Source: Lysobacter concretionis Ko07 = DSM 16239 (GTDB taxonomy: Bacteria > Pseudomonadota > Gammaproteobacteria > Xanthomonadales > Xanthomonadaceae). From it: 64,000 bases of DNA. Made by a program: the position numbers and the translations under genes. Under the pieces are notes generated by a model, which searched no databases, had not been told where the DNA came from, and was given only the letters and a program-made list of their open reading frames with translations. This document shows, piece by piece, positions 14,185 to 52,250 of this stretch. How positions within the stretch are numbered: position 1 is the stretch's first letter; every line of letters begins with the position of its first letter. The stretch covers positions 372,001 through 436,000 of the forward strand of contig NZ_AVPS01000001.1 in assembly GCF_000768345.1 (NCBI RefSeq), given 5' to 3'.

Positions 14185-14265
14185 CGTCATTCCCGCGGAA
14201 GCGGGAATCCAGTGGCTTGGTGAATGGAGGTAAGGCGCTGGGTCCCCGCTTTCGCGGGGATGACG
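14185..14265. repeat. Inverted pair of CGTCAT(T/C)CCCGCG palindromic repeats, no gene inside
   Basis: Two roughly 28-bp copies face each other in the etfB-etfA gap: 14185-14212 (CGTCATTCCCGCGGAAGCGG...) and the reverse complement at 14238-14265 (CGTCATCCCCGCGAAAGCGG...). Each copy is itself a small palindrome around CCCGCG/CGCGGG, and about 25 bp separates them. The related pair at 50591-50994 encloses a GIY-YIG gene. Confidence 0.9.
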
Positions 14266-16624: not shown

Positions 16625-16654
16625 CGTCATCCCCGCGAAGGCGGGGATCCATGG
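16625..16654 (+). repeat. Single CGTCATCCCCGCG palindromic repeat
   Basis: This 30-bp copy is identical, base for base, to the reverse complement of the repeat at 50965-50994 that closes the GIY-YIG cassette. It lies in the 246-bp manC-proS gap, where no gene was seen. Confidence 0.9.
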
Positions 16655-48616: not shown

Positions 48617-48774
48617 TCCCACCCGACGCCGGCCTTTGCTCCCCGCTCTTGCTGCAGTGCCTTCCACCCCTATCGGCACCACGTTTCGAGCCCGCGAAAA
48701 CCGGCTGAACCGCGAGCGAATAGACACCTCCGCCGACCTGTTAAAGTCGGCCGTTGAAGGACTCGGAGAGCGAT

Positions 48775-50532
48775 GTGAACGCAACAGCAGGCACACTCGC
48801 GGGCGGCACGGATGACCGCGGCATCGACAGCAATCGGGTCGAGGGCAATCCCGTGGAAGAGCGGATCGTCGACGCCCTGCTCGCGAAAGGCCGGCTCAAG
48901 GAAGCCGACCTCGGCCGCGCGCGCCGCTTGCAGGCCGAGACCGGCGGCAGCCTGCTCGCGCTGCTGACCCGGCTCGGGCTGGTGTCCGAGCGCGACCACG
49001 CCGAGACCGTCGCCGAGGTGCTCGATCTGCCGCTGGTCAGCGCCAAGGCCATGCCGGAGCTGCCGCCCGAAGGCGTGGCGCTCACGATCAAGTTCATGAA
49101 GCAGTTCGCGGTCGTGGCGGTGGCCGAAACCGACCCGGCGGTCGAGGTGCTGGTGGCTGATCCGCAGGACGCCTACACCCTGGATGCGGTGCGGTTGGCG
49201 ACGGGACGCGAGGTCCACGCCAGCGTCGGCCTGCGCTCGGAAATCGACGAGTTGATCGAGCGCTGGCACGGCCAGGGCCGCAGCGCGATGGGCACCATCG
49301 TCGAGACCGCCGAAGGCGAGGCCACCGGCGATCTGGACGACGTCGAGCACCTGCGCGACCTCGCCTCCGAGGCGCCGGTGATCCGGCTGGTCAACCTGGT
49401 GATCCAGCGCGCGGTCGAGCTGCGCGCTTCCGACATCCACATCGAGCCGTTCGAGAACCGGCTGAAGGTGCGCTACCGCGTCGACGGCGTGCTGATCGAC
49501 GGCGAGAGCCCGCCGGTCAACCTGACCGCGGCGGTGATCAGCCGCATCAAGATCATGGCCAAGCTCAACATCGCCGAGCGCCGGTTGCCGCAGGACGGCC
49601 GGATCATGCTGCGGGTGCAGGGCAAGGAGCTGGACCTGCGCGTGAGCACGGTGCCGACCGCCCACGGCGAATCGGTGGTGATGCGCCTGCTGGACCGCGA
49701 ATCGGTCGTGCTGGACTTCCACCAGTTGGGCTTCACCGACGAGTTCCTGCCGCAGTTCGAGCACGTGCTGCAGCAGCCGCACGGCATCCTGCTGGTGACC
49801 GGCCCGACCGGTTCGGGCAAGACCACCACGCTGTACACCGCGCTGAGCAGGCTCAATACGCCCGACGTCAAGATCATCACCGTCGAGGACCCGGTCGAGT
49901 ACCAGATCGAGGGCATCAACCAGATCCAGGCCAAGCCGCAGATCGGGCTGGATTTCGCCAACGCCCTGCGCAGCATCGTGCGCCAGGACCCGGACATCAT
50001 CATGATCGGCGAGATGCGCGACCTGGAAACCGCGCGCATCGCGATCCAGTCCGCGCTGACCGGCCACCTGGTGCTGTCCACGCTGCACACCAACAACGCC
50101 GCCGGCGGCATCACCCGCCTGCTCGACATGGGGGTGGAGGACTACCTGCTGACCTCGACCGTCAACGGCATCCTCGCCCAGCGCCTGGTGCGCCGGCTGG
50201 AGCCGACCCATGCGGAGAAATACCCGGCGTCGCCGGAGGAGATCGAGCGCTTCTCGCTGCGCCGCTACCAGCCCGACGGCGAGATCTTCCTGTATCGCCC
50301 GCGTGCCTCGGCACTGGCCCCGACCGGCTACCAGGGCCGCACCACGATCATGGAATTCATGGTCATCAACGACGACCTGCGCCGCGCCGTGATGCGCCAC
50401 GCCGGCATGGGCGAGATCGAGCAGATCGCCCGCGACGCCGGCATGCGCACGATGTACGAGGACGGCATCCTCAAGGCGATGGCCGGACTGACCACGATCG
50501 AGGAAGTGCTGCGGGTGACCGAGGATGCGTGA
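48775..50532 (+). CDS. gspE: Type II secretion ATPase GspE (XpsE)
   Basis: A cytoplasmic motor of 585 residues that drives pseudopilus assembly. An N-terminal MshEN-like domain (EERIVDALLAKGRLKEADLG; YTLDAVRLATGREVHASVG) precedes the ATPase core. The core has LRASDIHIEPFENRLKVRYR, Walker A GPTGSGKTTTLYTAL, the Asp box VEDPVEYQIEGINQIQ, Walker B DPDIIMIGEMRDLETA and the His box GHLVLSTLHTNNA. The zinc-binding CxxC pairs found in many GspE proteins are absent (the region reads LEPTHAEKYPASPEEIERF). GTG 48775 is chosen because GGAGAG lies just upstream; a TTG further up is less likely. It is the first gene of the operon. Confidence 0.95.
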   Translation: MNATAGTLAGGTDDRGIDSNRVEGNPVEERIVDALLAKGRLKEADLGRARRLQAETGGSLLALLTRLGLVSERDHAETVAEVLDLPLVSAKAMPELPPEGVALTIKFMKQFAVVAVAETDPAVEVLVADPQDAYTLDAVRLATGREVHASVGLRSEIDELIERWHGQGRSAMGTIVETAEGEATGDLDDVEHLRDLASEAPVIRLVNLVIQRAVELRASDIHIEPFENRLKVRYRVDGVLIDGESPPVNLTAAVISRIKIMAKLNIAERRLPQDGRIMLRVQGKELDLRVSTVPTAHGESVVMRLLDRESVVLDFHQLGFTDEFLPQFEHVLQQPHGILLVTGPTGSGKTTTLYTALSRLNTPDVKIITVEDPVEYQIEGINQIQAKPQIGLDFANALRSIVRQDPDIIMIGEMRDLETARIAIQSALTGHLVLSTLHTNNAAGGITRLLDMGVEDYLLTSTVNGILAQRLVRRLEPTHAEKYPASPEEIERFSLRRYQPDGEIFLYRPRASALAPTGYQGRTTIMEFMVINDDLRRAVMRHAGMGEIEQIARDAGMRTMYEDGILKAMAGLTTIEEVLRVTEDA

Positions 50533-50544
50533 GGTCCCCCTTAC

Positions 50545-50572
50545 CGTCATCCCCCGCGAAGGCGGGAATCCC
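50545..50572 (+). repeat. CGTCAT-type palindromic repeat after gspE
   Basis: The copy begins CGTCATCCCCCGCGAAGG and has one extra C compared with the others. It lies 12 bp after the gspE stop and immediately precedes the GIY-YIG cassette. Confidence 0.88.
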
Positions 50573-50590
50573 TGCGACATCAGCCAACAT

Positions 50591-50620
50591 CGTCATTCCC
50601 GCGAAGGCGGGAATCCATGG
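50591..50620 (+). repeat. Left 30-bp inverted repeat of the GIY-YIG cassette
   Basis: The copy CGTCATTCCCGCGAAGGCGG...CCATGG matches the reverse complement of 50965-50994 at 28 of 30 positions. The two differences are at paired positions of the internal palindrome, so each copy keeps its own hairpin. Confidence 0.92.
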
Positions 50621-50653
50621 ACGCTGCTTTTTTTATTCCAGGGAAGGAATGCA

Positions 50654-50992
50654 ATGGAGAGACAACCCTGCGTTTATCTGCTCGCCAGTGCTCGCAACGG
50701 AACGATCTACGTCGGTGTCACCAGCGACCTGGTTACGCGTATCTGGCAGCACCGCGAGCATGTCGCCGGAGGCTTCAGCGCACGCCACGACGTTACGCGG
50801 CTGGTTTGGTACGAGCAGCATGACGCCATGGAATCGGCCATCCAGCGGGAGAAGCGCATCAAGAAGTGGAACCGTGAATGGAAGCTCCGTTTGATCGATT
50901 CCTCCAATCCCTCGTGGCGGGACCTGTGGCCTGAGATCATCGGCGCGGTACCCACGGCGAACGTCCATGGATCCCCGCCTTCGCGGGGATGA
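50654..50992 (+). CDS. GIY-YIG nuclease family protein inside a palindromic-repeat cassette
   Basis: A small single-domain protein (112 residues) of the GIY-YIG superfamily (YhbQ/UPF0213-like). The motif halves appear as CVYLLASARNGTIYVGVTS, then VTRIWQHREHVAG with the conserved Arg, and the downstream Glu region AIQREKRIKKWNREWK. ATG 50654 has AAGGA upstream. The frame runs into the right-hand repeat, which supplies the last eight codons (HGSPPSRG) and the stop. It interrupts the gspE-gspF junction, which is normally tight, and is unrelated to secretion. It may nick DNA at or near such repeats, but this is a hypothesis. Confidence 0.9.
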   Translation: MERQPCVYLLASARNGTIYVGVTSDLVTRIWQHREHVAGGFSARHDVTRLVWYEQHDAMESAIQREKRIKKWNREWKLRLIDSSNPSWRDLWPEIIGAVPTANVHGSPPSRG

Positions 50993-50994
50993 CG
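50965..50994 (-). repeat. Right 30-bp inverted repeat of the GIY-YIG cassette
   Basis: Its reverse complement, CGTCATCCCCGCGAAGGCGG...CCATGG, is identical to the solo copy at 16625-16654. It encodes the C-terminus and stop of the GIY-YIG protein. Confidence 0.92.
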
Positions 50995-51032
50995 AACCAA
51001 ACCAGACAAACCGAGGCAGAACGCGTTTACCC

Positions 51033-52250
51033 ATGCCCCTCTACACCTACAAAGCGATCAACGCGCGTGGCGAGATGCTGGACGGTCAGATGGAAGCCGC
51101 CAGCAATGCCGAGGTCGCGGTGCGCCTGCAGGAGCAGGGGCACCTGCCGGTCGAAGCACGCTTGGCCAGCGAGGGTGGCGGGATGCCGGTGTGGCGGCGG
51201 CTGTTCAAGCCGCGGCCGTTTGCGGGCGAGCGGCTGGTCCAGTTCACCCAGCAACTGGCGACCCTGCTCGGTGCAGGGCAGCCGCTGGACCGCGCGCTGA
51301 CGATCCTGCTGGAACTGCCCGAGGACGAGACCGCGCGGCGGGTGGTCAGCGATGTGCGCGATGCGGTGCGCGGTGGCACCTCGCTGTCGACCGCGCTGGA
51401 GCGCCAGCACGGCACGTTCTCGCGGCTGTACGTGAACATGGTCCGCGCCGGCGAGGTGGGCGGCAGCCTGCACGAGACGCTGTCGCGGCTGGCCGATTAC
51501 CTGGAGCGCTCGCGCGCGATGCAGGGGCGGGTGATCAATGCGCTGATCTATCCGGCGATCCTGCTGGTGATGGTCGGCCTGAGCCTGTTGTTCCTGCTCG
51601 GCTACGTGGTGCCGCAGTTTGCGCAGATGTACGAAAGCCTGGATGCGCCGCTGCCGGCGTTCACCCGGGTCGTGCTCGGGGTCGGCCTGTTCGTGCGCGA
51701 CTGGTGGATCGTGTTGCTGGTGGTGCCCGCGTTGCTGTTGCTGTGGTTTGACCGCAAGCGTCGCGACCCGGTGTTCCGCGAGGCGCTGGATGGCTGGCTG
51801 CTGCGGCGCCGGTTCTTCGGCGGGCTGGTGGCGAAGATCGAGACGGCGCGGTTGGCGCGCACCCTGGGCACGCTGGTGAAAAACGGCGTGCCGTTGATGG
51901 CGGCGCTGGGCATCGCGCAGAAGGTGATGGACAACCGGGTGCTGGCCGCCGATGTCGCCGCGGCGGCCGAGGAGGTCAAGAACGGCGTGGCGCTGTCGAC
52001 CGCATTGGCGCGTGGCAAGCGTTTCCCGCGGCTGGCGCTGCAGATGATCCAGGTCGGCGAGGAGTCCGGCGCGTTGGACACGATGCTGGTCAAGACCGCG
52101 GAAACCTTCGAGCACCAGACCGCGCTGGCGCTGGACCGGATGCTGGCGGCACTGGTACCGATCGTCACCGTGGTGCTGGCCGGTCTGGTCGGGATGGTGG
52201 TGATGGCGGTGCTGACGCCGCTGTACGACCTGACCAGTTCGATTGGATGA
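51033..52250 (+). CDS. gspF: Type II secretion inner-membrane platform protein GspF (XpsF)
   Basis: A polytopic protein of 405 residues that anchors the GspE motor. Starting MPLYTYKAINARGEMLDGQM, it carries the duplicated T2SSF domain: ERLVQFTQQLATLLGAGQPLDRA and RGGTSLSTALERQ in the first half, LARTLGTLVKNGVPLMAALG and KNGVALSTAL in the second. Three membrane segments include LIYPAILLVMVGLSLLFLLGYVVP and VTVVLAGLVGMVVMAVLTPLY. ATG 51033 is used because family homology starts there; the open frame extends into the repeat upstream. The gap to gspE is 500 bp because of the repeat/GIY-YIG cassette. Confidence 0.95.
   Translation: MPLYTYKAINARGEMLDGQMEAASNAEVAVRLQEQGHLPVEARLASEGGGMPVWRRLFKPRPFAGERLVQFTQQLATLLGAGQPLDRALTILLELPEDETARRVVSDVRDAVRGGTSLSTALERQHGTFSRLYVNMVRAGEVGGSLHETLSRLADYLERSRAMQGRVINALIYPAILLVMVGLSLLFLLGYVVPQFAQMYESLDAPLPAFTRVVLGVGLFVRDWWIVLLVVPALLLLWFDRKRRDPVFREALDGWLLRRRFFGGLVAKIETARLARTLGTLVKNGVPLMAALGIAQKVMDNRVLAADVAAAAEEVKNGVALSTALARGKRFPRLALQMIQVGEESGALDTMLVKTAETFEHQTALALDRMLAALVPIVTVVLAGLVGMVVMAVLTPLYDLTSSIG

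Follow-up and report, generated by a model that had tools for sequence, protein, structure and literature searches.

CGTC-tagged REPs are present in many Proteobacteria, the dRS3 repeats of Neisseria included, and are apparently without a dedicated transposase (Di Nocera et al. 2013, PMC3733652). Dimers are common among the REPs of the so-called CGTC-1 type (PMC3733652). In parts of two accounts of the RAYT/REPtron system (PMC8266576, PMC8049555), RAYT or TnpAREP proteins are described as serving GTAG REPs, with the enzyme gene between inverted tagged palindromes, gene-less pairs and singlets dispersed, a gene presence that tracks REP number, and an enzyme that co-evolves with its REP. The system described here is alike in its gene position (between inverted tagged palindromes in 50 of 70 relatives in one sample and 20 of 29 in another), in its dispersed gene-less pairs and singlets, and in the co-variation of enzyme and REP. 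It differs in that its REPs are CGTC-tagged while those of RAYT are GTAG-tagged, and in that RAYT is an HUH tyrosine transposase, whereas the enzyme found here is a GIY-YIG nuclease. For CGTC-1 REPs, published as apparently transposase-less, a cognate nuclease is proposed here.

The window, i.e., the whole stretch of 64,000 nucleotides of Lysobacter concretionis Ko07 that was analysed, carries a gene for a GIY-YIG nuclease of 112 aa (P0001; 50654–50992, forward strand), identified by Pfam, conserved catalytic residues and the fold of a predicted model; GIY-YIG is the sole Pfam match of the product (E 1e-15). As had been stated in the preliminary description of this DNA, the gene lies between inverted repeats at the gspE-gspF junction, its left neighbour being a gspE-type ATPase gene (T2SSE by Pfam; 48754–50532, forward strand) and its right neighbour a gspF-type gene (T2SSF by Pfam; 51033–52250, forward strand). 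The inverted arms (50590–50623 and 50962–50995) are 34 nt each and 94% complementary, and comprise a left CGTC REP at 50591–50617 on the forward strand and a right one at 50968–50994 on the reverse strand, both with a C-class stem and with the tag outward. A degenerate extra REP copy, a direct repeat with one additional C in its stem, is located upstream (50545–50572, forward strand). The right REP makes the end of the gene, encoding its last seven or eight codons (eight according to the earlier description) and the stop, and residues 109–112 of the protein have a pLDDT below 50 in the predicted model.

That model (mean pLDDT 85) exhibits the GIY-YIG fold, while the catalytic residues Y8, R29 and E66 are invariant in 114 aligned rows and Y19 and N85 are present in 113 of the 114; the window protein therefore possesses both the fold and the catalytic Y, Y, R and E that characterize the GIY-YIG superfamily. 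The nearest solved structures are the UPF0213 protein BH0048, Slx1 and the N-domain of UvrC. The scores are modest in every case, the best Foldseek E being 3.7e-3 and no hit reaching 0.001. The catalytic fold is shared with GIY-YIG homing endonucleases and with single-domain UPF0213 proteins, BH0048 being the nearest; unlike these, the window enzyme is tied to dispersed palindromes. No intron, intein or extra DNA-binding module was seen with the GIY-YIG gene.

The REPs consist of a CGTC tag (4 nt), an 8-bp stem, a 4-nt loop and a CCA tail, in all of which they agree with the published CGTC-1 REPs (PMC3733652), and they can be classed as such. Exact 13-mer matches occur at five sites within the window, every one among the REP features described here, and the 3.03-Mb genome (26 contigs) contains 47 REPs with up to three mismatches against none for the reversed pattern, so that the REPs are not a product of chance. 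Across the 30 REPs, out of 47 in the genome, that were compared, conservation sets in with the initial C of CGTC and dies away approximately 34 bases in. A gene-less, REPIN-like outward pair between two ORFs previously called etfB and etfA (14185–14265), which folds into a single hairpin (z -8), and a solo REP (16625–16651, forward strand) had both been reported before and were both recovered. In the genome as a whole, eight of ten gene-less close REP pairs point outward like the flanks of the gene, the other two having the opposite orientation; this may be set beside the dimers common among CGTC-1 REPs.

A nuclease gene might come to lie between REPs simply through being placed among common intergenic repeats, or the REPs might be only terminators or mRNA stabilisers, and it is true that 29 of 88 neighbouring ORFs at the loci compared have a REP on at least one side. 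Among the best 70 matches to a 28-sequence profile within the window's family, however, 50 have correctly oriented REPs on both sides, as compared to one of the 88 neighbouring ORFs at the same loci (p 1.5e-23). At least one side is occupied in 65 of the 70, and by the same criterion 20 of them lack the left REP, the right REP or both. In a comparison set of 20 distant, weaker GIY-YIG matches, from which fragments were excluded, none is flanked on both sides and one on at least one side. Displaced inverted-arm controls reached a maximum score of 15 in the set with the distant GIY-YIG loci, and positions 50400–51200 of the window contain zero matches to a T-tract terminator and zero to a sigma-70-like promoter. 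Chance flanking as an account of the association is refuted by the two-sided comparison, and we regard this whole explanation as scarcely credible. Flanking at the level of repeat density, and the same gene with unrelated flanks, were both looked for as signs against the association, and neither was found.

The arrangement extends beyond the family. The GIY-YIG subfamily is present in 100 of 398 sampled genomes of the phylum (E 1e-20), or about a quarter, and in a phylum-wide sample of 29 newly fetched loci, examined with a somewhat looser finder, REPs flank the gene on both sides in 20 and on at least one side in 26; the inverted-arm score is at least 16 in 19 of the 29, with displaced controls reaching at most 12. 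In an earlier set of 65 loci, of which 63 were testable, 46 have an arm score of at least 16, including Alphaproteobacteria with very different stems; among these high-scoring arms, a few (L044, L051 and L056) are other than CGTC REPs, and the displaced controls of this set, which scored up to 33 and for which an overlap with the true pair was possible, were not used as a control. Of six plasmid-collection records, four have clear matching inverted palindromes adjoining the gene, and the N. gonorrhoeae plasmid-collection copy sits within an array of C-class (dRS3-like) repeats. A further point of difference from RAYT is that relatives are found on plasmid records, certain of these records being in fact chromosomes. 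In the record of Photobacterium GJ3 (L314) no inverted pair spans the gene, and regularly spaced alternating C-class repeats (L314:2968–5279) begin about 180 bases downstream. Thirty-nine of 48 viral-contig loci were tested, 32 of them with an arm score of at least 16, and there was no match among phage records. E. coli K-12 is not known to carry the subfamily.

Genome-wide REP number follows the presence of the gene. Across 198 genomes of the family, the median is 50 REPs in the 61 with a strong match to the nuclease versus zero in the 137 without one (within-genus permutation p 5e-5); six of the 137 nevertheless hold at least 20 REPs and nine of the 61 fewer than ten. The kind of REP follows the kind of gene as well, where gene classes were called for genomes only from genes scoring at least 100. 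The 27 genomes with only C-class genes have a median of 55 C-REPs and one G/A-REP, the 19 with only G/A-class genes have four and 16, respectively, the 13 with both gene classes have 42 and 34, and the 139 with neither have zero and zero. The ratio of C to G/A REPs accordingly differs by gene class (p 8.5e-8), with the own-class excess missing in three of the 27 C-only and three of the 19 G/A-only genomes. Genomes commonly carry two or more copies of the gene.

A similar correspondence is found between the flanks and the protein itself. REP stems fall into classes according to their centre, i.e., CCCGC, CCGGC, CCAGC, CCTGC and others, and the left and right stems agree in class at 71 of 73 loci (at most 38 of 73 after shuffling) and, within the window's family, at 48 of 48 (shuffle maximum 30). 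The protein tree was built after dropping five duplicate loci, which left 120, and then rows of fewer than 85 residues, which left 114. On this tree, the eight stem classes of 99 rows require nine changes, the lowest of 300 shuffles being 40. The 63 family rows require six changes for five classes (shuffle minimum 20), as against 41 changes of host genus (23 genera) on the same rows. The protein is short, and many forks are weakly supported, 64 of 111 inner branches being open; furthermore, the recurrence of gene copies at a small number of sites means that part of the agreement is shared orthology. Family genes with G/A stems cluster with G-stem genes from other Gammaproteobacteria and not with the C-stem genes present in the same genomes. 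The C and G/A clades differ at residues 71, 68, 73, 48–49, 35–36 and 92. Protein models built from other lineages distinguish the 43 C-flanked from the 24 G/A-flanked family genes with an AUC of 0.92 (six sequences underlying the C model), and the nearest protein in another genus names the C or G/A class correctly at 64 of 67 loci. None of six loci in the rare classes T and TC is named correctly by this test. Both the nearest-protein result and the trans abundance numbers were unchanged after removal of six possibly same-genus reference rows. Host background alone was considered as the cause of stem class and rejected, because different two-sided classes occur within one genome (e.g., L109 and L152 of G063; L102 and L137 of G174) and because class changes six times on the tree as against 41 for genus. 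The analogy with RAYT and its REPs, drawn at the outset from the window, thereby holds in quantitative terms: REP number tracks gene presence, and REP stem and protein co-vary.

These data also bear on the possibility that another enzyme mobilises the REPs, the nuclease gene being a passenger, or else encoding a host factor that acts on REP structures (removing extruded hairpins, for example), and being kept where REPs abound. Structure-specific Slx1 is among its nearest folds, and a hydrolytic nuclease has no strand transfer activity, both of which would suit such a role. A general hairpin processor, however, needs no match of stem among protein clade, own flanks and genome-wide REPs, and we consider this explanation quite improbable. 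Based on the sequence comparisons as a whole, a partnership between nuclease and REPs appears close to certain; whether the gene hops autonomously is less clear.

With respect to movement, empty sites of the kind sought at the gspE-gspF junction do exist. Among ten genomes of the genus, eight have the two genes no more than 42 bp apart and REP-free, and the cassette is present in the window genome and in one other, G003. At the G003 junction (L007/L105), the GIY-YIG frame continues through decayed REP units into a long low-complexity tail. In a second genus (12 genomes), the same junction holds a long GIY-YIG ORF in three genomes, cut-down genes in two, a single hairpin in two and nothing in five; one of the three with the long ORF (G165; L122) lacks the right REP and has a tandem run of CCCGAAT heptamers beside gspF. 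In all nine genus relatives, the junction that corresponds to 14185 is without the gene-less pair, and the solo REP at 16625 is absent in all four relatives with a readable junction (four more being unreadable and one outside the test). As the empty sites are without any REP, insertions enter REP-free junctions or are lost completely, and judging from the junctions either direction may apply.

Three chromosomal sites recur, with 24, 21 and 19 loci (six named-record loci counted in), and include 58 of 90 family loci; according to protein matches, gspE and gspF adjoin the GIY-YIG gene in 22 of 140 loci examined. RAYTs, as single-copy and vertically inherited genes, are reported to stay put; the GIY-YIG genes have recurrent sites, yet several genomes carry more than one copy. 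Protein distances show no correspondence to flanking-gene distances at sites 1 and 2 (r -0.10 to 0.01), while left and right flank distances agree mutually (r 0.33 to 0.60); at site 3, protein distances agree with both flanks (r 0.35 and 0.45). Not all of the long flank ORFs used for these distances may be true frames, and site 2 with true frames agrees. The mismatch at two of the three sites offers, for a protein of 96 residues, a weak hint of turnover or repeated arrival, and the site distances overall may be compatible with vertical descent with losses as well as with repeated arrival.

One alternative explanation is a homing-like process, in which the enzyme cuts empty junctions or REP-bearing alleles and repair copies the gene together with its REPs, these being ends or by-products that spread mainly by homologous events. 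The occupation of the same junction across genera (22 loci at gspE-gspF; the sites of 24, 21 and 19) and the lack of linkage at sites 1 and 2 of protein distances to flanks that agree mutually are consistent with homing, as is the fold, which the relevant part of a superfamily survey gives as that of homing endonucleases (PMC1564403). Site 3, however, does match its flanks, and homing leaves the tens to hundreds of REPs elsewhere unexplained and offers no account of a REP stem class that follows the enzyme clade. We consider a homing-like origin unlikely.

Direct traces of transposition were sought in several comparisons. No target-site duplication was resolved, the flanks at the empty-site junctions and in the pair G165/G105 being too diverged. 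The genomes G201 and G202, 99.1% identical over 198 kb, have zero indels of 20 or more bases inside their alignments, and four differing intergenic stretches found between G165 and G105 are mosaics, with no clean recent insertion. A search for pairs of plasmids differing in the presence of the element found none. In a Thiodiazotropha MAG (L064–L068, L020, L061 and L062), a multi-copy unit wider than the REPs carries a REP pair, and five copies contain a gutted GIY-YIG gene with one common deletion; as it is this larger repeated unit that carries the REP pair and the gutted gene, the copies do not date REP movement. The original suggestion of a self-mobilising cassette is thus upheld as regards specific flanking and empty sites, but not as regards mobility of the gene, given that 58 of 90 family loci occupy three sites and that no duplication, excision product or cut was seen.

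In our reading of the sequences, the nuclease would be the cognate partner of the CGTC REPs, RAYT-like in its working yet unrelated to RAYT. It appears to be the best candidate for the spreading of these REPs because its relatives sit between, and co-occur genome-wide with, their own matching REP version. We believe it probable that it is a dedicated trans-acting nuclease of CGTC REPs, where each GIY-YIG clade would recognise its own REP stem. The gene kept between two outward REPs would represent a REPIN whose spacer carries the enzyme, and gene-less REP pairs and single REPs would be its non-autonomous dependants. The enzyme, among whose nearest solved folds is the structure-specific nuclease Slx1, would cut an extruded or single-stranded REP, or a pair of them, at the CGTC tag or immediately beside it, after which host repair or replication would place REP copies at new sites. 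GIY-YIG enzymes hydrolyse DNA, and joining must therefore come from the host or another partner. Of the earlier proposal that a GIY-YIG protein is the mobilising enzyme of REPs, the partnership is supported by comparison, i.e., by flanking, left-right agreement of stems, co-variation, abundance in trans and REP-free empty sites, whereas mobilisation by cutting, and the resulting spread, are inferred.

Comparable associations were encountered with other nucleases. Among DUF559 nuclease genes of the window's family (L315–L344, 28 of 30 tested), a long inverted palindrome of a different kind spans the gene at 22 of 28 loci with an arm score of at least 20, where the displaced controls of the distant GIY-YIG test, taken for comparison, reach 15. 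These palindromes are C/G-rich and mostly of the CCCTCTCCC..GGGAGAGGG kind and its kin. That the DUF559 genes share the CGTC REPs was considered and rejected, such REPs being found on both sides at only one of the 28 loci, and there as a weak, chance-like palindrome. In the distant GIY-YIG subfamily, the inverted arms at five of 20 loci (L169, L170, L172, L174 and L178) belong to another palindrome type and score higher than any control, several of them being CCGTTCG..CGAACGG-like; L177 equals the control maximum. In addition, GIY-YIG relatives at L269, L270 and L272 lie near TGTCAT-tagged palindromes with differing stems (TGTCATCCCGA.., TGTCATTTCGA..), at L270 on one side only. The DUF559 and distant GIY-YIG palindromes suggest a general class of nuclease-palindrome pairs. 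We regard as evenly balanced the broader proposition that entire families of dispersed bacterial palindromes are driven by stand-alone nucleases and not by transposases, the GIY-YIG clade being the missing enzyme of the CGTC REPs and the distant GIY-YIG and DUF559 pairs following the same rule.

Among the matches listed from open-licence PMC full texts, in the parts that these cover, no published account of a GIY-YIG/REP pairing was found. The word ‘palindrom’ is absent from the relevant part of the 2006 GIY-YIG superfamily survey (PMC1564403), and a 2025 REP survey (PMC12306157) makes no mention of GIY or nuclease. A cognate enzyme would make the origin of CGTC REPs testable in vitro, and would constitute a second, unrelated solution to the problem that RAYT solves for its REPs. 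The findings furthermore suggest that many small orphan nuclease genes may be repeat-spreading enzymes.
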